Of a DNA stretch of 64,000 nt, positions 48,038-64,000 are shown piece after piece (position 1 is the first letter of the stretch; each line of letters begins with the position of its first letter). This DNA comes from an unidentified bacterial endosymbiont (GTDB taxonomy: Bacteria > Pseudomonadota > Gammaproteobacteria > Enterobacterales > Enterobacteriaceae). Made by a program: the position numbers and the translations under genes. A model generated the notes under the pieces. It saw only the letters and a list, made by a program, of their open reading frames with translations, made no database searches and was not told where the DNA came from. The DNA is taken from NCBI RefSeq assembly GCF_918797525.1, contig NZ_OU963893.1, positions 3,472,001 through 3,536,000 of the forward strand, given 5' to 3'.

Positions 48038-48778
48038 TTATTCAACTTTGCGAGGACCATTTTGCAGCAATACGTTTAACACGGCGTCGGCCTCGGCAGT
48101 TCGACTCCCGGGTTTCGCCAGTTGGGCGGTATTGAGCGCCTGAATGCGGGTTGAATAAGATTCTGTATCTTTCAGGGTAATGAACAATACTCGCTCATAC
48201 TCTTTATCGACGTCTATCGTCAGCCCCATGGGGCAAGTCATCAGCAGTGCGCCGGTAGGACCAGCCTGTACCGCAAAGGTGATATTGTATTGATAGGTGG
48301 TTTTCTTCTCCTGTTTCTTTTCCCAGAAAATCCAGGCATTACCCTCTTCTTTATGAAGATCGGTATAAGCGCTTTCAATCGCTGCCGAGAGTTTGGCAAG
48401 AGGTACGGGGGCAAGGGCAATACCCAGTACGGTCTTGATGGTTTCCACGACTAAATCGACCATCACCGAGGTCTGAGAACTGCTGGTCGTTTTGGTAATG
48501 TCCGTGTAACTAATGACTGATAGTTCGGGATTTTGCTTAACAACGTCAAGAGCGGTGTTGACATCGAAGCGAAGAGAATTATTTTCTGCGGGAACCAGCG
48601 CGTTCTGAAAGATCCCTGCTGTTTTCAACGCCAGGGGTAAAATTTCCGGATCCGTTAAAGAATATATTTCATCGTAATTAGTTTCCTCGGATGTTAAACG
48701 GATCAATAGGTTTCGGGTAACCACCGGACTAATAAGCAACTGTGCCGGGCTATTTAATACTTCTGTTTGTGCAGTCAT
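48038..48778 (-). CDS. Cyt-type cytolysin homologue (delta-endotoxin Cyt family)
   Basis: 246 residues, matching Bacillus thuringiensis Cyt1/Cyt2 (about 250-260) in length and, by remembered alignment, in most of its length. The clearest match is residues 148-168: AWIFWEKK... then TYQYNITFAVQ, against AWIFWHSL... and SYYYNILFSIQ in Cyt1A. TGALLM, then DVDKEYERVLFITLKDTESY (189-208) and IQALNTAQL (212-220) follow, against DVEKQKVLFFTIKDSARY and MKALTLVQAL. No signal peptide, like Cyt proteins. Cyt proteins are membrane-active toxins; cyt-like genes are known in Dickeya. Activity here is unproven. The AT-rich flank suggests acquisition. It has its own promoter region and is not part of sit. Confidence 0.82.
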   Translation of the reverse strand: MTAQTEVLNSPAQLLISPVVTRNLLIRLTSEETNYDEIYSLTDPEILPLALKTAGIFQNALVPAENNSLRFDVNTALDVVKQNPELSVISYTDITKTTSSSQTSVMVDLVVETIKTVLGIALAPVPLAKLSAAIESAYTDLHKEEGNAWIFWEKKQEKKTTYQYNITFAVQAGPTGALLMTCPMGLTIDVDKEYERVLFITLKDTESYSTRIQALNTAQLAKPGSRTAEADAVLNVLLQNGPRKVE

Positions 48779-55177: not shown

Positions 55178-55229
55178 GGGGCCCCCGCTTACGTTCGAAC
55201 GCTGGCTTAGACTTTATTTTCACAGCCAC

Positions 55230-55256
55230 AATTCCCCGGGGATATGCCGGGGAATT
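55230..55256 (+). terminator. Hairpin after betA
   Basis: AATTCCCCGG (55230-55239) and CCGGGGAATT (55247-55256) form a perfect 10-base stem with a 7-base loop about 50 bases after betA. The T tail on the + strand is weak. Confidence 0.55.
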
Positions 55257-55714
55257 ATTCCAGTCAGAACCCGTTGTCATGATTACATTGCTACATTTGC
55301 GGAAAGATTTGCTAGTGAATTAACCGTGCACACGCCATCCTGATACACTTCGTCTCCTCACTTATGAAATAACCTGTTTTTTATCTAAACATAATATTTT
55401 ATTTATGCGTCATATTTTACTGGCCGCTACACTTGCGTCCTGATGCTGAGAAAAGAATATTACCACTTCGAAGATGGCAATTTTTATAAGGTGTTTAACT
55501 GATTTAAGATGCTAATCAAGCGGCTCTGGGACGTGGCTATGCCGGGTTATTATTTGGTGGCATAACGTTTCATAGCCCGGTCCATTTAAATGATCGAAAT
55601 CAAATTCCAGTAAATTATGCGCGTTGCTACTGGCATTATTATGAATGTGCGCTAGTAATGTAATGTGGCAGTTGATATGCCACCTGTTATTACCAATAAA
55701 TCCACGAGGATACT
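55257..55714. other. AT-rich leader region of the lasso peptide cluster
   Basis: About 460 bases with no gene. Composition shifts from GC-rich betA to AT-rich here, marking the left boundary of the acquired cluster. A small hairpin GTGGCA/TGCCAC (55665-55683) lies 30 bases before the precursor start. I see no unambiguous promoter. Confidence 0.5.
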
Positions 55715-55876
55715 ATGGAAGAAACTAAGGTAATTACCTGTAACGACACATCTGATAAATACGAGGCAATAGATTTCGAGCTTGTAGAGTGCGAGTCTGT
55801 TGAGGCGACTACCAGCATAATGGGATTGCCTCGCGGTCCTCTTATGGAAGCTGTGTTCTATGTGTACAGGTGCTGA
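55715..55876 (+). CDS. Lasso peptide precursor (53 residues)
   Basis: Starts ATG after ACGAGGA, ends TGA at 55874-55876. The leader (residues 1-36) is acidic and includes KYEAIDFELVECESVEATTS then IM. The predicted core, residues 37-53, is GLPRGPLMEAVFYVYRC: Gly1 can form the isopeptide with Glu9 (residue 45), a nine-residue ring with an eight-residue tail. Proof of context comes from the three following genes, which are the protease, cyclase and exporter of lasso peptides. Oddities: Ile instead of Thr at the usual -2 position, and a single Cys at the core end. The GLPxG opening recalls BI-32169 (GLPWG), known from actinobacteria. The exact cleavage site is inferred. Confidence 0.85.
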   Translation: MEETKVITCNDTSDKYEAIDFELVECESVEATTSIMGLPRGPLMEAVFYVYRC

Positions 55877-55892
55877 ATTTGATTGCATAAAA

Positions 55893-55916
55893 GGGGGGAG
55901 CGATTTTGCTCCTCCC
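55893..55916 (+). promoter_or_regulatory. Stem-loop between lasso precursor and protease genes
   Basis: GGGGGGAGC (55893-55901) pairs with GCTCCTCCC (55908-55916), nine pairs including one G-U, around GATTTT. No T run follows, so it is more likely a stabilising or processing element that raises precursor mRNA over the downstream genes. That role is inferred. Confidence 0.6.
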
Positions 55917-55942
55917 TCCCGGTAAACAAAGAAGGAGGATGC

Positions 55943-56605
55943 GTGAAATACAGAAATTTTATTCCTGGAATCTATCCAGCCCGTGTACGGGGTCAAATTA
56001 TTATAATGAATGTAATAGATAATAATTTTTATATCCTTTCACCCGGGGAATCCCGTTCTCTGTTACAGTGTTACACTGGCGATAATAATGTAACATTTAT
56101 GGGGCGCGGAATACTAACCAACAAATTTAATAATCATGATCAATATAATCTATTTAAAGAAAAAGATACGCTGGGGATTGGCGTAAATTTTTGGTCTCTT
56201 AAGAACATGAATATTTCTTTTAGAAACCAGTTCTGGATTTTGCAGATGATCAAATCACTGTATATATCCCATAAATTGATAAAAAAAGGATTGCCTTATA
56301 CAATCAATTACTTAAATGAGAACTGTATAAAAACAATCAAAAAACTAGATGTCGCTCAGGTAGTACAACATCTGAATGCCGCCACCCTGCTTTACCCTTT
56401 CAAAACAAAATGTCTGGAATGGTCCATAGCATTAACTCACTATATTATTCAGTTTGGTTATCAACCCGTTTTAAAAATAGGCGTTCAAAATAAACCATTT
56501 TACTCACATGCCTGGATTGAACTTGACGGAGAGGTTATTGGAGACATTAGTGATTTAAATGAGAGAATGGTAGTAATATATCAAAGCAAGTTAGGAGCAA
56601 GGTGA
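55943..56605 (+). CDS. Lasso peptide leader protease (McjB-like, RRE + transglutaminase-like)
   Basis: 220 residues from GTG 55943, chosen for the AAGGAGG site four bases upstream; the frame opens 20 codons earlier without support. The N-terminal region (residues 1-90) resembles the leader-binding part of McjB (GQIIIMNVIDNNFYILSPGES against EDLVILDIINDSFSIVPDAGS). The C-terminal papain/transglutaminase-like domain has Cys157 in KCLEWSIAL, His189 in PFYSHAWIEL and Asp201 in EVIGD, aligned with the McjB catalytic triad. It removes the leader to free Gly1. Strongly AT-rich codon use. Confidence 0.9.
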   Translation: MKYRNFIPGIYPARVRGQIIIMNVIDNNFYILSPGESRSLLQCYTGDNNVTFMGRGILTNKFNNHDQYNLFKEKDTLGIGVNFWSLKNMNISFRNQFWILQMIKSLYISHKLIKKGLPYTINYLNENCIKTIKKLDVAQVVQHLNAATLLYPFKTKCLEWSIALTHYIIQFGYQPVLKIGVQNKPFYSHAWIELDGEVIGDISDLNERMVVIYQSKLGAR

Positions 56606-56607
56606 TA

Positions 56608-58239
56608 ATGTTCAAAATAGATATAACCTTTGAAGGAAAAAAACAAACTGATGTTTTTCTGCGTAATGACAACGTCGAGATATCAGGGAAAATAGACCTT
56701 CCTTACGCAGCACACTTAGAAAAAGATCATTTAGTACTTATTGCTGGCAGCATAAAATGTTACAACGGCGAATCTGTTGAACTTAACATGGCAGCAAAAA
56801 TGCTATTAAACAATGAAGTTCAGGAAACGGATTTCTATGGAGATTTTATATGTCTGGCATTTTCTCGGGACTGTGTGGAAATTTATACCGATCCTTTCGG
56901 TCAGTTTCCTGTTTATTATGTAATTAATAACAATGGCAGTATAGTGCTGGCAAGCGGGAAGGACTGTAAAGGTTTATCACGTTCAGATAACAATATAGAC
57001 ATTGATTTTCTCTCCAGTTATATCAACTCAGGTGATTTTATTGAAAACAGAACAGCTATTGCTGGCATGCATATCTTGTCCCCGGGGTTTAAGTATTGTT
57101 TTACATCGACAGGGGGACTTTCCAGGGAATATATCATAAATAAAATCATATCAAAGGCAGAAAATACAAATCCGTATACTATCCTAAAAAAAACACTGGA
57201 GCAAAAAATAACTGCGCATGACAAAATTGTACTTGAATTATCGGGAGGCGTTGAGTCAAGCAGTATTGCTGCTATTCTTGCCTGTCATAAAAATAATAAA
57301 GACATTAAATTCCTTACATACTATGACAAGTACAGTTTATCTTCAAATGAACTCAGCCACGCAAAAAAAGTTGCGAAATACTTCAATGTTAAACTGGATG
57401 TTATTGAACTAAGTGATAAGTTACCGTTTACGCCATTTACAGAGGAAATACCATTTCACCCTTTACCTGGAAGTTATGCCTGTTTTTATAATCAGCAACG
57501 TTACATGGCTGACTCGTATGATGCCAGTACGTTGTTTATAAATGGTCATGGTGGAGACTCAATTTATCTGGCTCCATCCCCCCCGGCACTATTCGCAGAG
57601 ACATTATTCAATTCAGGTGTCAGCAAGGCATTTAAAATCCTTTATAGTATATCACTGCAACACCACTCTTCTCTTTTTGATGAAGCGGTAAAATCGATGA
57701 CTAATGAATACATATTAAAAAACAATCCGCAATTGTGGTATTTTGATAGTATCAAAAACATAAATAGATATACCCGTCCGGCATCAGTTTTCTGGTGGCA
57801 AGCACTTGGTTCAACAATATCTGAGGTTCTTCCTATTCTGAATCATGCATTTTCTGGCAAAACCGTTTACTATCCATTTCTGTCCTCTCCGGTCGTTATC
57901 AACGCTATTCGCACCGGATTCGACAAACTGGTGCATAATGAATTCAACAGATTTCCTTTGCGTAAATCTGTTTACATAAATACGGGGTTTAGAGGGATCT
58001 GGAGAACAGATAAAGGGGACACTACATACAACATGCTTGCGGGCATTAGTAAAAATTACCATTTTATAAGGAATTTTCTACTCAGCGGGCATCTTGCCGA
58101 AAAAAAATTACTAGACCGCAACCTAACTGAAAATATACTAAAAAAATTGAACCTTGGTTTACCTGAGGGATTACCCGTTATCGTTCGCTTATACGCCGCT
58201 GAAACATGTCTGAGGTCGTTAGACAAAGGTGGTTTATGA
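56608..58239 (+). CDS. Lasso cyclase (McjC-like, asparagine synthetase homologue)
   Basis: 543 residues from ATG 56608; a GTG at 56602 overlapping the protease stop is the alternative. The N-terminal half is a glutaminase-like domain that begins MFKIDITFEG and so lacks the catalytic Cys2 of true asparagine synthetases; GDFICLAF and TDPFGQFPVYY (about 78-104) are its remaining blocks. The C-terminal domain has the ATP pyrophosphatase loop LELSGGVESSSIAAIL (SGG at 212-214), where VE replaces the common LD. It should activate Glu9 with ATP and close the ring. Coupled to the genes on both sides. Confidence 0.9.
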   Translation: MFKIDITFEGKKQTDVFLRNDNVEISGKIDLPYAAHLEKDHLVLIAGSIKCYNGESVELNMAAKMLLNNEVQETDFYGDFICLAFSRDCVEIYTDPFGQFPVYYVINNNGSIVLASGKDCKGLSRSDNNIDIDFLSSYINSGDFIENRTAIAGMHILSPGFKYCFTSTGGLSREYIINKIISKAENTNPYTILKKTLEQKITAHDKIVLELSGGVESSSIAAILACHKNNKDIKFLTYYDKYSLSSNELSHAKKVAKYFNVKLDVIELSDKLPFTPFTEEIPFHPLPGSYACFYNQQRYMADSYDASTLFINGHGGDSIYLAPSPPALFAETLFNSGVSKAFKILYSISLQHHSSLFDEAVKSMTNEYILKNNPQLWYFDSIKNINRYTRPASVFWWQALGSTISEVLPILNHAFSGKTVYYPFLSSPVVINAIRTGFDKLVHNEFNRFPLRKSVYINTGFRGIWRTDKGDTTYNMLAGISKNYHFIRNFLLSGHLAEKKLLDRNLTENILKKLNLGLPEGLPVIVRLYAAETCLRSLDKGGL

Positions 58240-59897
58240 CATTATTACAGGATTTTAATTTCTTCCTGAGAAAAATATGTAATATTAATCACGCTTTAAA
58301 AGTAACAATTATTTTTAACGTGCTATGTGCGCTTTTATTTGTTGCTGTCACGCTCTCGGTGCCCTACGCTCTTAAGATGACAGTTGACACATTATCTCAA
58401 GCCGATCGCTTTGAAAATGCGCACGAAATCCTGTGCATTGTTTCACTTTACTGCGTTATCTGGACGGCTAATCAGGTACTGCAATGGGTTCGCACACTGC
58501 TGTGCGCGCCATTAATAGCAAAATGTGATTCAGCATCCCAGATATTACTTTATCTCCATCTGATTAAAATCAGGTACGAGATCATAAAAACGATGGACAT
58601 CGGACTGCTTTATGCAACGCTAACCCGATGCAGGACGGCATTTAGTACGCTTTCATTTTCTTTTTTCTGGATTGTTATTCCCGTCCTTTTCCAGATTACA
58701 ATCGGAAGTCTTTTCATTTTTGTTGTGCTGGGCGCTTTACCGGGGATAATCATTCTTGTCTCGGCTTTCATTCTTCTGTTCAGCTCCCTGCATTTCTCTT
58801 CAAAAACAACCCAGGCTCATCTTCAATCTTTTGAGGCCCAGAATCTTCTCTCCGTTCATTTTAATGAAAAGATCTTATCCATTGTTGAGATTAAAACAAA
58901 TAACGCCTACCACAGAGAAGACAAAACCATTCAGAATGTTGCGAACCAATACAACGAAAAGCTGATCCAGAGCAGTAAAGGGTTTTCATTGATAATGATT
59001 AATCAGTCGGTTGTTTCCGGTATTGTGTTTACCGTCATTCACCTTTTTGCTGCATGGTTTGTTTACAGACAAACCATGAATATCGGTGATTTTATCCTCA
59101 TGTCCGGATATATCGTATCCCTTATCGCACCTTTTGATGCCCTGGCTGCATCGTTTTCTGATCTCAAAAAAAACCATCTGGCGCTGCTGGAGGGTATAAA
59201 TATTCTTAACACTGAACAGGAGGGGGCGAAAACTATTACGCAGAAAAAGAAGTTACCCGTTCTTGAGATAACTGGCTACAGGTCACCCTATTCCTCTGAT
59301 TCGCTCAACGTTACCATCAACTGCGGAGATATTCTGCTCATTACCGGTGAATCGGGTAAAGGGAAGACTACCCTGCTTCATTCCATTATTGGGCTTACTA
59401 TTAATTTCAGTGGATCAATCAGGCTGTACGGATGTGATGTCAGAAAACTTTCTCCGTCATCAATAAGCAGCGTTGTTTCATTTGTCCAGCAGGAGCCTAC
59501 CATTTTTAGCGGAACAGTCAGAGATAATCTTCTCTATGGTTTTGACGGTTCTGTCGATGACGCTCGCCTTCATTCGGTTCTTAATGGATTATGCCTTTCT
59601 GGCCTGAATAATACACATCCTCTTGATTATCATGTTGGACAAAAAGGAAATAAGCTTTCAGGAGGAGAAAAACGACGACTTGCAATAGCAAGAGCTGTTA
59701 TCAGAGACTTACCAGTGATGGTTTTAGATGAACCAACGTCCGGGCTTGATTACGCTACAGAGCAATCCGTCATGTCTTACCTTTCCAGTCTGGGCAAAAC
59801 GATTTTACTCGTTAGCCATAGCCGTTATATCCATAAATATTGCACCAACGTAATCGATATGGATAGTATAAGAGCCCGTGATAAAACCACTGAATGA
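58236..59897 (+). CDS. Lasso peptide ABC exporter/immunity protein (McjD-like)
   Basis: 553 residues from ATG 58236, which overlaps the cyclase stop as ATGA and follows AAAGGTGG. Six membrane helices lie in residues 20-310. The ATPase has Walker A GESGKGKTT (371-379), the Q-loop QQE (418-420), signature LSGGEKRR (474-481), Walker B VMVLDEP (494-500) and His528. This exporter-plus-ATPase half-molecule forms a homodimer like McjD and would export the peptide and protect the producer. It closes the ABCD operon. Confidence 0.9.
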   Translation: MTLLQDFNFFLRKICNINHALKVTIIFNVLCALLFVAVTLSVPYALKMTVDTLSQADRFENAHEILCIVSLYCVIWTANQVLQWVRTLLCAPLIAKCDSASQILLYLHLIKIRYEIIKTMDIGLLYATLTRCRTAFSTLSFSFFWIVIPVLFQITIGSLFIFVVLGALPGIIILVSAFILLFSSLHFSSKTTQAHLQSFEAQNLLSVHFNEKILSIVEIKTNNAYHREDKTIQNVANQYNEKLIQSSKGFSLIMINQSVVSGIVFTVIHLFAAWFVYRQTMNIGDFILMSGYIVSLIAPFDALAASFSDLKKNHLALLEGINILNTEQEGAKTITQKKKLPVLEITGYRSPYSSDSLNVTINCGDILLITGESGKGKTTLLHSIIGLTINFSGSIRLYGCDVRKLSPSSISSVVSFVQQEPTIFSGTVRDNLLYGFDGSVDDARLHSVLNGLCLSGLNNTHPLDYHVGQKGNKLSGGEKRRLAIARAVIRDLPVMVLDEPTSGLDYATEQSVMSYLSSLGKTILLVSHSRYIHKYCTNVIDMDSIRARDKTTE

Positions 59898-59922
59898 CCG
59901 CCGCTTGGGATCAATTAAGCAG

Positions 59923-59952
59923 GATATCCACGACAGCGCGGATATCCTTGAT
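59923..59952 (+). terminator. Hairpin after the lasso operon
   Basis: AGGATATCC and GGATATCCT form a nine-base stem around ACGACAGCGC about 25 bases after the exporter stop. The following TTGATTGTC is a weak T tail, so termination may be partial. Confidence 0.45.
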
Positions 59953-60021
59953 TGTCACCTTCTCCTGTCCTGGTTGTAGACCGCTGTCTGTGCAATTACC
60001 TACTGCCGGAACAATAATGTT

Positions 60022-60573
60022 TCACACATGGGTTCTGACCAGGTAAAGCGCAGTCACAATGTTACGTTTGTCCATATCACTTAGGTTTGGTGCTGTAAGT
60101 TGCGACATCACCAGTTGCACATCCTGGGGTGAAAAAGAGCCAACCATCAGTCTCTGGCTGACGGCCCTGAGTATCTCCAGATCAAGTTGACTGATTTGAG
60201 CTCTGACTCCGGCTAAACTCTCCGGCGAGGGGGAAAAATCCGGCGTGGCAAGCCAGTCAGCAAGATAGCGGTACTGAACCGCTTTTCCTGCATTCATGAG
60301 GCTACACATCAAGGCCCGGCTAGTGCCAGCAGCCAGTCCCTCACCGTCAGCCACCTCTTCAGCAGCGTCAAGCACAATCTGTTCCCGGTCCAGATCCTCC
60401 ACGGCGAGATGGTGAGCCGCCTTGTAGGCTGCCACAGACTGCATTAGCAGCATGCGGGCATTGATAGCCTCTGAGAGGCGGCCGAGTGAAACGGTTGAGA
60501 CTGACATGCTGAAAACCGTGCTACACATAAACATTGACGACAGAAAAATCACCACATACTGCATATCTGGCAC
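60022..60573 (-). CDS. Secreted chorismate mutase (AroQ gamma class)
   Basis: 183 residues. A hydrophobic start (MQYVVIFLSSMFMCSTVFS) is a signal peptide, so the enzyme is periplasmic or exported. The helical AroQ core follows: INARMLLMQSVAAYKAAHHLAVEDLDREQIVLD (residues 37-69) and LMNAGKAVQYRYLADWL (about 92-108), with the Arg/Lys/Gln residues of the active site. The family converts chorismate to prephenate outside the cytoplasm, a role still debated, with links to pathogen-host interaction in other species. It points towards the lasso operon, converging on its end. Confidence 0.85.
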   Translation of the reverse strand: MPDMQYVVIFLSSMFMCSTVFSMSVSTVSLGRLSEAINARMLLMQSVAAYKAAHHLAVEDLDREQIVLDAAEEVADGEGLAAGTSRALMCSLMNAGKAVQYRYLADWLATPDFSPSPESLAGVRAQISQLDLEILRAVSQRLMVGSFSPQDVQLVMSQLTAPNLSDMDKRNIVTALYLVRTHV

Positions 60574-61649
60574 TCCCGTGCTGACATCAACCCTTAAATA
60601 AACGATATAACATCACAATTAACAGATTTTGATTGTCATACCGGGACATATTTTCACCTGGATCCGCTACGGCGGTCTGTCTGGCAAAGGGCTCACTGGT
60701 ATTGCCATAACCGCACCTCTCTGAGGATAATGAAGCACATGGAGGATCAATTCCCATTACCTCACTACCAAAGACAAGATGAAGAGTAATTTAGGTGAAA
60801 AATGATAACATTTGGTGATTATATTGTTTTCTGATTGTAAATGAATTCACATAAAGGGTGAATATCACCTGCAGTCGCCTGGGGTATGTAACGTAAATCT
60901 GCTGCTGATTCCCTGCTGGTTGTGGATTACACAATGATGGACAGCGCATAGACCCATTGAATAAAGAAAACCAACCTGTTGCTTACATAAATTTACATTA
61001 AGTAAAATCTTTCAGCAGTCCAGCCGATAAAAAACCTAAAATGGGATCGGTTTTCTCCCGGGTAAGTCTTCTGGTTGCCCTTGATTTGTGAAAATGAAGT
61101 TTCAGCCAGTTCGCTGCTGGCGCGAACGTTAGCGGAACGAAAATTCACGCTTAGATAAGTGACATTTGGGTGTTGACGAAGTTTGGAGCCTCGCCTACAT
61201 CAGTTGTCATCTCTCAGACCTGGCCAAAGCCATAATATTTCCATTCGAAGATATTAGCTGATAGTGAGAAACTATTGTGTACTTTGGAAACGCATAAATG
61301 ATATTTATTTAGGACATTCTTTTAAATTTCTCATAACGCAACTCAAATAAAACCGATAAGTATCAGGTGAATAAAGGGTGTGCTGAAAGATATTTTCACT
61401 GTAAGATTTCTCAGTTCTGTAAGTATTCAAGCACCTGCATGAACCCTATACTGAAATACATTCGTATGGTACTTATTTTCGATATCAAACCCAAAACAGG
61501 AAATCAAGAAGCGGCGCAGCTCACTAATTGTGTTATTCATTACCTATTAATAGTTTTATGCTACTTTATGAAAGATACGCATTTTTGAATATTATATATA
61601 AACGACATGATAATTGTTAGAAGAAAACGAGTACTCGAAGGAATGACTA
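60574..61649. other. Long gap without a convincing gene
   Basis: About 1.07 kb, mostly AT-rich. A 73-codon + strand frame (61367-61588) has no ribosome site or recognisable motif. The GC-richer patch near 61080-61200 has no motif I can name. The promoters of the chorismate mutase gene (left end) and the next gene (right end) must lie here. Confidence 0.5.
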
Positions 61650-62144
61650 ATGTCCGATGTTAATAATGATTACGCTTTTTCTACCGTCCACTTTTCAGAG
61701 ACTCAAAATTATGGACCTGAGAGCACAGAAGGCAACAGAGAATCAACTCTCCTGACAAAAGCGCTGATTTCCGTACGAAATAGCAGTCATAGACTTAACA
61801 AGGGAAGCACGTTAGCCAAAATGCCAACTTATCTTAACCAGTCATGGCAGTGGTTACGAACACCATCCGACAACCCTGTTTCTGTGGTAAATGGGAGCGG
61901 CAAAGAAGAAACCGAGTTGCAGGAAATACTTATTGAAGGTGAGAAACTTCGCAGACTGGGAGATTTACTACGCGCTCCCAAAACTGAAGAAACCGTTCCC
62001 CATGGCTGGAGAGATAGCATTCTAAAGCGTTTGCTGATCGGGATTAGTTTGATTGGCGCATCTGGATATGCAGAATACAGGTTCTACAATGCAAGTCCCC
62101 CCAGCGGAAGCCAGCAGAATGCACTGCCCGCCACCAACGGGTGA
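61650..62144 (+). CDS. Unknown protein with one C-terminal membrane segment
   Basis: 164 residues. GAAGGA lies nine bases upstream of the ATG. The first 110 residues are polar and Ser/Asn/Glu-rich; a hydrophobic stretch KRLLIGISLIGASGYAEYRFY lies near residues 126-146, then a Pro/Ser/Gln-rich end. I recognise no family. It overlaps the next gene by 56 bases in another frame, implying coupled expression. A membrane tail anchor is possible, with the polar part in the cytoplasm. Confidence 0.65.
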   Translation: MSDVNNDYAFSTVHFSETQNYGPESTEGNRESTLLTKALISVRNSSHRLNKGSTLAKMPTYLNQSWQWLRTPSDNPVSVVNGSGKEETELQEILIEGEKLRRLGDLLRAPKTEETVPHGWRDSILKRLLIGISLIGASGYAEYRFYNASPPSGSQQNALPATNG

Positions 62145-63804
62145 CCATGTTCGCTTAATGCCCATACAACCTAAGAAAATGAACCTGGTCACTTTTGAAA
62201 ATGAGATCCCTGCAAGCAAATTGCTCGTTATCCCCTTACCCAGTACGCATCACAAACATGAAATGCTACACAGTATTGATAATGGTTTGGATAAAATTTC
62301 AGCCCGAACAACGATTGCCAGCCCAGTCGCTTTCCTTAATGCAGAGGACGGTGTCAAGATTGAAAAAATGTATGATTTTTCATGCATTGATAAACGAAAT
62401 AATATGTCCTGGGCAGACATTATTCGCCAGGTGGGAGAAACATTAACGTCTCCCGTTGAGTCTCTGGCCAGAGAATCTCAGATCGTTCATTATCATAATA
62501 GCCTGGGAGAAGGATGTCCTGGACAACCAGATAGCAAGCGTCTTCAGGAGTACGCAGGAAGAGTTGATGCTATTCTTTCGGGAGTTATGCAGCTTATTCC
62601 AGGCGCCAATCCTCTTATGGTTTTACAGCTCATCGTCGGCCCGGCGCTGGAGATTTATGCGGATGAGTTGGACGAAAAACCACTTGACCTGCAAAAAATC
62701 AATAATATCAATCAGCAGGTGTTAATCTGCTCCAGGAAAGAAATTCAGACCTTAAGTGCGAAAGAAAAAATGAGAATATTTCCTGGCGCATCAACAAATG
62801 AAATCATAAAAAAACTTGATACTATTAATGGCGAAGTCGCAGTTAAAATTGGCGAAGAAAAATATGTTCTTCATAACGATTTATATGACTCTCCCTTCAT
62901 TGAAATCGATGGAGTGCAACGCTACATTCACTTTAACAATAAAGATAAAACCTGGGTGTTTAACGCAGAAAATGATATCAGGAGTTCATCTTATTTATCA
63001 TCTATGAAAATAGATACTTACAAGAGTAACTTTTCATACAATGCTGACAACGATTTTATCATTACACCTGACGACGAAATAGTCGATACAAGAAATAAAA
63101 GAAAATATCTTCTTATCAATGGAAAAGAAGTGCATGTTATTGATGGGATTGAAAAAAACTCTTTTTTCCCGGCAAGTAGTATAATTTCAGGCGACGTAAT
63201 AAAAAAAGGGGAAGGAGAATATTACTTTGAGGCTGAATCAGCACCTGTAGACTCGGAAGTTGCTGAAATATTGAATGTTGACGTAAATGAATTTATCAGT
63301 GGTGGTGATAAAACATCAATAAAACCCAATCTTTTATCCCTGGATAACAACAAACATCGTTATGTAAAATATCACAATCTATACCATCCTCTGGAAAATG
63401 GTAGTGAACTATTTATTGAACGCATCGATGGAAGCCTGGCGATAATCACTACAAGGTCAGGGCGTCTGAGTGTGGCTAAAGTAGTTAAGCAAAATCTACC
63501 TGATGCAGAACATCTTACCGGGGACTTATTTATCACCCGTGACCTGAAAATCAAATTAGAGCAGGAGGGCGCTACTTTAAACTACAGTGGTTACAAAAGT
63601 AGTGATGGTATGAAATTCGACGCAGATTCGCTAAAGAATCATTTGCAAATTAATAATAACGTATATAAATCTGTTCATTCAAGTCACTCTCCCTGGATTT
63701 TTGTAGAGAATAAAAAAGACGGATATCCAGATATTCCGGTATTTTTATATGACGATGTCCTTATACAAGGAAAAGAGGGTTTTATGGAAGATACGTCTTC
63801 ATAA
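62089..63804 (+). CDS. Large unidentified protein, partner of the preceding gene
   Basis: 571 residues from ATG 62089 (AGG upstream) or 583 from ATG 62053; I cannot decide. No signal peptide. The region around residues 145-190 (DAILSGVMQLIPGANPLMVLQLIVGPALEIYADEL) is helical and amphipathic. The second half (about 250-571) is rich in short beta-type units with a recurring aromatic pattern, such as KYVLHNDLYDSPFIEIDGVQRYIHF, RKYLLINGKEVHVIDG and HRYVKYHNLYHPLENGSELFIERIDG. I do not recognise it; size, AT-rich codons and overlap with a small membrane-tailed protein are compatible with a secreted effector or toxin, which is only a guess. Confidence 0.7.
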   Translation: MQVPPAEASRMHCPPPTGDHVRLMPIQPKKMNLVTFENEIPASKLLVIPLPSTHHKHEMLHSIDNGLDKISARTTIASPVAFLNAEDGVKIEKMYDFSCIDKRNNMSWADIIRQVGETLTSPVESLARESQIVHYHNSLGEGCPGQPDSKRLQEYAGRVDAILSGVMQLIPGANPLMVLQLIVGPALEIYADELDEKPLDLQKINNINQQVLICSRKEIQTLSAKEKMRIFPGASTNEIIKKLDTINGEVAVKIGEEKYVLHNDLYDSPFIEIDGVQRYIHFNNKDKTWVFNAENDIRSSSYLSSMKIDTYKSNFSYNADNDFIITPDDEIVDTRNKRKYLLINGKEVHVIDGIEKNSFFPASSIISGDVIKKGEGEYYFEAESAPVDSEVAEILNVDVNEFISGGDKTSIKPNLLSLDNNKHRYVKYHNLYHPLENGSELFIERIDGSLAIITTRSGRLSVAKVVKQNLPDAEHLTGDLFITRDLKIKLEQEGATLNYSGYKSSDGMKFDADSLKNHLQINNNVYKSVHSSHSPWIFVENKKDGYPDIPVFLYDDVLIQGKEGFMEDTSS

Positions 63805-63904
63805 TGCTTAATACGCCTGATTTTCTGGCAAAACTAGCATCAGATATCAATATGAATAAATTTGTTCAAACTTAACCGTATTAATGTCCTTACGGGATTA
63901 TTTT

Positions 63905-63948
63905 GATGGTCAGGAAATCAAATCGTCATTTTTAGATTTCCTGACCAT
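63905..63948. repeat. Inverted repeat, copy 2
   Basis: ATGGTCAGGAAATC (63906-63919) and GATTTCCTGACCAT (63935-63948) form a perfect 14-base stem. The outer arms GATGGTCAGG and CCTGACCAT, and the 25-base spacing between them, are the same as at 17788-17832. Confidence 0.75.
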
Positions 63949-64000
63949 GCGCGGATGACATGGTTGCGCCGCAAACTAAGGTCACCCTACCAAAAAAGTG

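Follow-up and report, generated by a model that had tools for sequence, protein, structure and literature searches.

A probable lasso peptide operon with isoleucine at leader position -2 in an enterobacterial endosymbiont

We present a lasso peptide gene cluster of four genes (A, B, C and D) identified in the window, i.e. the whole 64,000-nucleotide stretch under study, which is part of the 4.76 Mb single-contig genome of a bacterial endosymbiont assigned to the Enterobacteriaceae. All four genes lie on the forward strand and are intact, as read from the sequence and the list of open reading frames (ORFs), B, C and D are homologous to lasso peptide proteins, and catalytic residues and core positions are conserved. 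We consider it very probable that they constitute an intact, probably horizontally acquired operon, whose product would be a 17-residue lasso peptide with a Gly1-Glu9 ring, exported by D and acting as a narrow-spectrum antibacterial. The system is of a known kind, distinguished by a variant leader recognition and by a core family in which we found no tested member.

We propose that B would recognise the leader of precursor A through its N-terminal part, and that its protease part would cut after Met(-1), directly ahead of Gly1, accepting Ile at position -2 in place of Thr. C would then activate Glu9 with ATP and join it to the amine of Gly1 around the tail, giving a lasso with a 9-membered ring and the tail AVFYVYRC (or the same tail lacking Cys17 after trimming). 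D would export this lasso and protect the producer, with the peptide probably directed against relatives. The four-gene set is probably sufficient to make and export such a knotted peptide, and, being compact and intact, the operon is probably usable in Escherichia coli as an entry into a lineage of lassos of which we found no tested representative. Lasso peptides of such bacteria are often narrow-spectrum antibiotics. Moreover, a fused B paired with a naturally occurring Ile(-2) precursor renders the leader-recognition rule testable, and the core pattern conserved across the family hints at a shared target.

The four genes and their products

The first-pass annotation of this DNA had proposed a complete set of four adjacent same-strand lasso genes, the last three overlapping or nearly touching, and this is borne out by the reading frames and the domain content of B, C and D (Table 1): B and C are separated by two bases, and C and D overlap by four (ATGA). 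B matches the NCBIfam model NF033537 (lasso_biosyn_B2) at 68.3 bits (cut-off 33) and Pfam PF13471 at 62.1 (cut-off 26); its Cys157/His189/Asp201 align with Cys150/His182/Asp194 of McjB, as expected of the McjB-type protease that had been claimed. Profile comparison using hhalign related B to a set of three microcin J25-type B proteins at 99.4%, with the alignment beginning at B residue 11 in the putative N-terminal RRE region, and C to the three corresponding C proteins at 99.1%. The assignment of C as a cyclase and D as an ABC exporter likewise holds: C matches PF00733 at 30.8 bits (cut-off 21), and D matches the ABC ATPase domain PF00005 at 97.2 and the membrane domain PF00664 at 44.2. Lasso cyclases carry the motifs SGG-x-(D/E)-S and GHGGD, and in C and its relatives these take the forms SGGVES and GHGGD, invariant across 12 aligned rows. 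In sequence searches of the PDB, C had weak matches to asparagine synthetase and beta-lactam synthetase, D matched generic exporters, and B had no match.

Table 1. Features of the lasso peptide operon and the island that contains it (window coordinates)
Feature	Position	Strand	Basis and details
Ribosome-binding site of A (GAGG)	55706..55709	+	sequence
A, precursor, 53 residues	55715..55876	+	ORF; 33/53 identical to Salmonella plasmid ORF; alignment with nine other precursors; leader of 36 residues (55715-55822), core of 17 (55823-55873), stop TGA
RNA hairpin in the A-B gap	55892..55917	+	stem of 11 bp, not followed by a U-run
Ribosome-binding site of B (AAGGAGG)	55932..55938	+	sequence
B, predicted leader-binding protein and cysteine leader peptidase, 220 residues	55943..56605	+	NF033537, PF13471, McjB triad alignment, hhalign; start refined to GTG preceded by AAGGAGG
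Catalytic triad codons of B	Cys157 56411-56413; His189 56507-56509; Asp201 56543-56545	+	
C, lasso cyclase of asparagine-synthetase type, 543 residues	56608..58239	+	PF00733, hhalign, tree, 65% to a Salmonella protein; start refined to ATG, in agreement with relatives starting MFKI
D, ABC exporter, 553 residues	58236..59897	+	PF00005, PF00664; start refined to ATG 58236 rather than 58206
Variable island with the cluster, mostly low G+C	55179..64000		comparison with seven same-genus genomes

Precursor A matched no family model of Pfam or NCBIfam. A tblastn search of 72,556 plasmid records recovered, at E = 3e-11, a 53-codon ORF at the corresponding place on the Salmonella Macclesfield plasmid NZ_CP022118.1; the two are identical at 33 of 53 residues, and their 48 nucleotide differences fall mostly on third codon positions (27), with a nonsynonymous divergence (dN) of 0.20 and a synonymous divergence (dS) that is saturated and not computable. 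Because the counterpart is conserved in place and sequence, with this third-position bias, A is not a chance ORF, and that possibility is ruled out. The earlier claim that the precursor is too short for default gene callers did not hold up, as the 53-residue protein is present in a predicted-protein database and its Salmonella counterpart is annotated as WP_157719622.1. The N-terminal extension of B in a database protein (P0030) resembles an other-frame reading of the end of the Salmonella A; shifted by one base, it permits just G, [APST], any of eight residues, [LMV], E and [GS], where the G5-G10 pattern is expected.

The gap between A and B folds at -24.3 kcal/mol (z -2.63 against shuffled sequences). 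GC-rich hairpins lacking a U-run, of differing sequence, occur in all six A-B gaps whose folding was compared with shuffles (z -2.3 to -3.2), and two further Burkholderiaceae stretches folded without shuffles gave one clear hairpin and one none. Such a hairpin may shield the A transcript or reduce read-through. That the operon, albeit intact, is silent, or yields an unthreaded branched ring, is in our view improbable: a scan gave no forward-strand sigma-70-like site upstream of A (the region has 7 sites against a shuffle mean of 15.6), and the Ile(-2) bsf cluster was silent, with no mature lasso in the hosts tried (PMC10368454), but all four genes are intact here and the third-position bias relative to the Salmonella precursor speaks against silence.

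Core family, leader recognition and predicted product

The core, GLPRGPLMEAVFYVYRC, spans 17 residues with Gly1 and Glu9 behind the leader, and the proposed Gly1-Glu9 ring is supported by the cores of relatives. The closest is GLPGGSIMEGVFFVYKF of the Salmonella plasmid (10 of 17 identical). ORFs beside related B and C genes furnished GIRGGAILEIGAWIYKL in Chitinasiproducens palmae and, in other Burkholderiaceae, GTRGGSILEIGAWVYKF, GAAGGSILEINRFVYKL, GKAGGAILESISWVYQF, GAAGGAILEGISWVYME (two genomes) and GTPGGAMLEGISWVYVE; an Acinetobacter indicus plasmid encodes GKPGGSIVEGSFSVWKR, and longer cores open with GTGGGSIIEGSYTVYRC on E. coli and S. salamae plasmids, GNGSGSLVEGRRRVYRC in Pantoea and GQGGGAIVEGSYAVYRD in Rhizobium. 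G1, G5 and E9 occur in all 12 distinct 17-residue stretches, which were partly selected for them, in keeping with the ring geometry that the first-pass annotation had suggested. Outside the search pattern, V fills position 14 in 11 stretches and I in one, and position 15 holds Y in 11 and W in one. Residue 17 varies widely (C in three, F in three, L in two, E in two, R and D in one each). The window core is atypical at positions 4 (Arg for Gly), 6 (Pro for Ser or Ala) and 10 (Ala, with Gly in 7 of the 12).

These precursors were gathered in several ways. A B-like match was present in 39 of 398 Burkholderiaceae genomes, and precursors were sought in 14 of the 39: seven had a 17-residue core (six cores, one of them twice), two a GGxGxYxE-type precursor, and five none by the patterns used. 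Nine genomes were scanned on both strands with [TIVASC]-x-G-x3-G-x3-E or looser, which preselects G1, G5, E9 and the class of residue at -2 while leaving length 17, V14, Y15 and the NATxST leader free; three chance matches not directly before B were discarded. Two further rounds of reading in Burkholderiaceae covered the forward strand only, though the loci are unoriented, and the plasmid precursors were chosen by eye from ORF lists.

At -2 the precursors have Thr in 9 of 12, Val in Acinetobacter, and Ile in the window and Salmonella. The cleavage site is fixed by the nine with Thr(-2); moreover, two of the cores, found in three Burkholderiaceae genomes, follow leaders ending in STM|G, compared with SIM|G in the window, suggesting the same cleavage site with one residue changed. 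Cleavage one residue later, giving a Leu1-Glu8 ring (mass 1894.959), is very improbable: Leu-first lassos such as citrulassin and lagmysin are known (PMC12427821, Table 1) and the geometry is allowed, but all 12 aligned cores, in part selected for it, have Gly at this place, and Thr stands two residues before the Gly1 cut in the nine precursors noted above.

Several points weigh against our reading. G1, G5, E9 and the -2 class (T/I/V/A/S/C) were themselves search criteria, with other precursors picked by eye. Thr occupies -2 in 94% of cases according to PMC11420955, a rule broken by the window's Ile. The Ile/Val(-2) clusters found by the authors of PMC10368454 are all accompanied by a kinase or phosphotransferase, domains that are absent from the island genes searched for domains. 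Further, the McjB pocket for the -2 residue (F23, M108, L151, S181; PMC11420955) is little changed in the window (F29, L117, L158, S188; V, L, L, S in Salmonella), and since these residues differ so little, the reading of Ile(-2) is unexplained by sequence. Nevertheless, BsfB2 cuts Ile(-2) in vitro, and other lasso precursors engineered to carry T(-2)I remain substrates, with lower turnover (PMC10368454). Given this natural precedent, Ile(-2) is not new and Thr(-2) no strict requirement.

The predicted lasso, cut after Met(-1) and keeping all 17 residues, has a computed mass of 1951.980. Loss of Cys17 in the mature peptide (1848.971) is a possibility to which we give less than even weight: the only observed product of albusnodin reportedly lacks its terminal Cys (PMC9266682) and residue 17 is variable among the cores, but the cluster has no trimming enzyme, so that host carboxypeptidases would be required. 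The single Cys, situated at the free end, could alternatively join two lassos by a disulfide (3901.944); as the Salmonella relative lacks Cys17, and we know of no precedent for a disulfide lasso dimer, we deem this improbable.

The window core is absent from the 62 cores in Table 1 of PMC12427821; among the 36 of these compared with it position by position, the best shares four identical positions. The first-pass view of this core as unlike microcin J25, citrocin and klebsidin is supported. That annotation did not foresee the relatives on plasmids and in Burkholderiaceae, or Ile(-2). The core string and fragments of several relatives' cores returned no literature match, in a search without most subscription journals or supplements, and an earlier bioinformatic listing of the window core is quite possible. 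A kinship to pandonodin, suspected from a 33-residue E. coli core, was dropped, the pandonodin sequence in the same Table 1 being unlike it.

Genomic setting, distribution and possible target

The operon is situated in a variable island between betA, which ends at 55178, and the conserved backbone, which returns 14 bases past the window end. In seven genomes taken from 17 others of the genus with a strong betA match, this interval measures 0.9 to 13.4 kb, and blastn at E 1e-5 finds nothing in it that matches the cluster. The G+C content of A, B, C and D is 0.45, 0.34, 0.37 and 0.41, respectively, and about 0.60 in the bet genes upstream. Among 61 genomes of the genus searched, C turned up in that of the window alone and in none of the 60 others. 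Across the family, 11 of 392 genomes showed some match to C, the next after the window's own (G319) being partial at E 7e-20 and the rest weaker; C had no match in complete E. coli genomes. Among named organisms, B and C have database relatives in Enterobacter kobei, E. sichuanensis, Klebsiella variicola and Salmonella and, much more distantly, in Paraburkholderia. In a pattern-based scan of one genome per GTDB species, C had no relative and B a single one, in C. palmae, and a phylum-wide draw with B gave 4 of 398 genomes, its own and three whose matches span about 70 residues at 28-33%. The operon was probably acquired horizontally. A phage or virus origin was considered and set aside: C had no match in phage records, and neither C nor B a relative in viral contigs.

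Elsewhere in the island, a chorismate mutase type II gene adjoins the cluster (60022-60573, reverse strand), and two overlapping ORFs of 164 and 583 residues (61650-63804) have no Pfam match. Outside the island, a gene on the reverse strand (48041-48778) matches PF01338, the Cyt-type Bacillus thuringiensis toxin family, at 208 bits. A K. variicola plasmid (NZ_CP063918.1, L003:8043-9347) has a D-type exporter gene lacking its front and adjoining an IS3 element; the 17 kb viewed there carries no annotation for A, B or C.

C is 65% identical to a Salmonella protein and 29% to one of Paraburkholderia. A tree of 21 cyclases joined, at 100/100 support, the window clade (7 rows) and a Burkholderiaceae clade (6 rows, including an unplaced protein from a metagenome), placed the plasmid A-C-B type (5 rows) next and set the J25 type (3 rows) apart; it is midpoint-rooted and includes three long-branch rows and ten of unusual composition. 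The albusnodin model NF033561 is the best NCBIfam match of the window C (94.5 bits), a Burkholderiaceae C (130.5) and an E. coli plasmid C (57.9), all below its cut-off of 300; the McjC of microcin J25 has no match to it at E 1e-5.

The target had been left open in the first-pass annotation, rightly in our judgment. Enterobacterial lassos besides microcin J25 also inhibit transcription. Microcin J25 itself does so (PMC11420955), and the related C. palmae cluster (L016:1293-12133) is flanked by rpoC and recQ; this enterobacterial habit and the one cluster beside rpoC are all that suggests RNA polymerase. Blockage of RNA polymerase in the microcin J25 mode is rather unlikely, as the cyclase lineage is apart from the J25 type, the core has no Tyr9 and no C-terminal Tyr-Gly and a tail of only 8 residues, and no rpoC was seen among the larger ORFs listed for three other Burkholderiaceae loci. 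More tentatively than for the operon itself, we suggest that G1-x3-G5-x3-E9-x4-[VI]14-[YW]15 might be one pharmacophore across Enterobacterales, Burkholderiaceae, Acinetobacter and Rhizobium despite their differing gene orders, and hence directed at one conserved target distinct from that of J25, with the Enterobacterales branch having switched to Ile(-2) without a kinase; this conjecture could readily prove wrong.

Comparison with related and known systems

The Salmonella Macclesfield plasmid shares with the window a 53-residue precursor, Ile(-2), a 17-residue G1-E9 core, the A-B-C order and the A-B hairpin, with B 65% and C 63% identical; unlike the window, it has Phe17 instead of Cys17, and the two cores are identical at 10 of 17 positions. 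This copy looks damaged: C is broken into two ORFs, and of D just the beginning is visible, next to transposase ORFs. An ABC transporter gene lies further on, on the other strand.

The Burkholderiaceae group with 17-residue cores has the A-B-C-D order (read in L016, L063 and L064), the G1-G5-E9-[VI]14-Y15 core, the A-B hairpin and cyclases that join the window clade. It differs in having Thr(-2) and in its divergence, the C. palmae B being just 31% identical and the Paraburkholderia C 29%. Serine carboxypeptidase (Peptidase_S10) genes stand beside two of these clusters (L063:8093-9649, L064:7981-9528) and may serve in tail trimming.

The A-C-B plasmid lassos of E. coli, Salmonella salamae, Pantoea and Rhizobium, together with the D-A-C-B cluster of A. 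indicus, share G1, G5, E9, V14 and Y/W15 with the window; of the A-C-B type, D follows where it was read, in E. coli and Pantoea. They differ in gene order, in long tails with two Cys in four of the five, and in a C only 21-24% identical. The E. coli cluster (A-C-B-D; NZ_CP091758.1, L017:2502-6613, also L018 and L062) has a 33-residue core with Cys at 17 and 32 and a precursor annotated as hypothetical; 27 of the 5,426 complete E. coli genomes match its A-C-B stretch (24 of them across 80% or more of its length), always on plasmids. On Pantoea agglomerans plasmids (L021, L058, L059) the lasso cluster is followed by an efflux adaptor gene, with an ABC permease gene as well in L021, where the precursor core GNGSGSLVEGRRRVYRCSSSSGIGFSVC was read.

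Albusnodin of Streptomyces albus represents the nearest NCBIfam cyclase model to the window C, and its core likewise ends in Tyr-x-Cys; the window differs in scoring below that model's cut-off and in having Ala10 rather than Lys10, and the island genes searched for domains include no acetyltransferase. The Bsf lasso cluster of Bradymonas sediminis shares Ile(-2) and has a split B1/B2 with a kinase, in contrast to the fused B of the window and its island, in which no kinase was found among the genes searched. With a single core Cys against the two tail Cys needed for a tail disulfide, the window peptide is not a class IV lasso. Finally, microcin J25, klebsidin and citrocin have, like the window, a fused B, a cyclase C, an exporter D and enterobacterial hosts; klebsidin and citrocin have a Glu8 ring and Thr(-2). 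Microcin J25 has a Glu8 ring and Thr(-2) (PMC11420955), and the window system is not of its type, with a cyclase off the McjC branch and Glu9 instead of an 8-membered ring.

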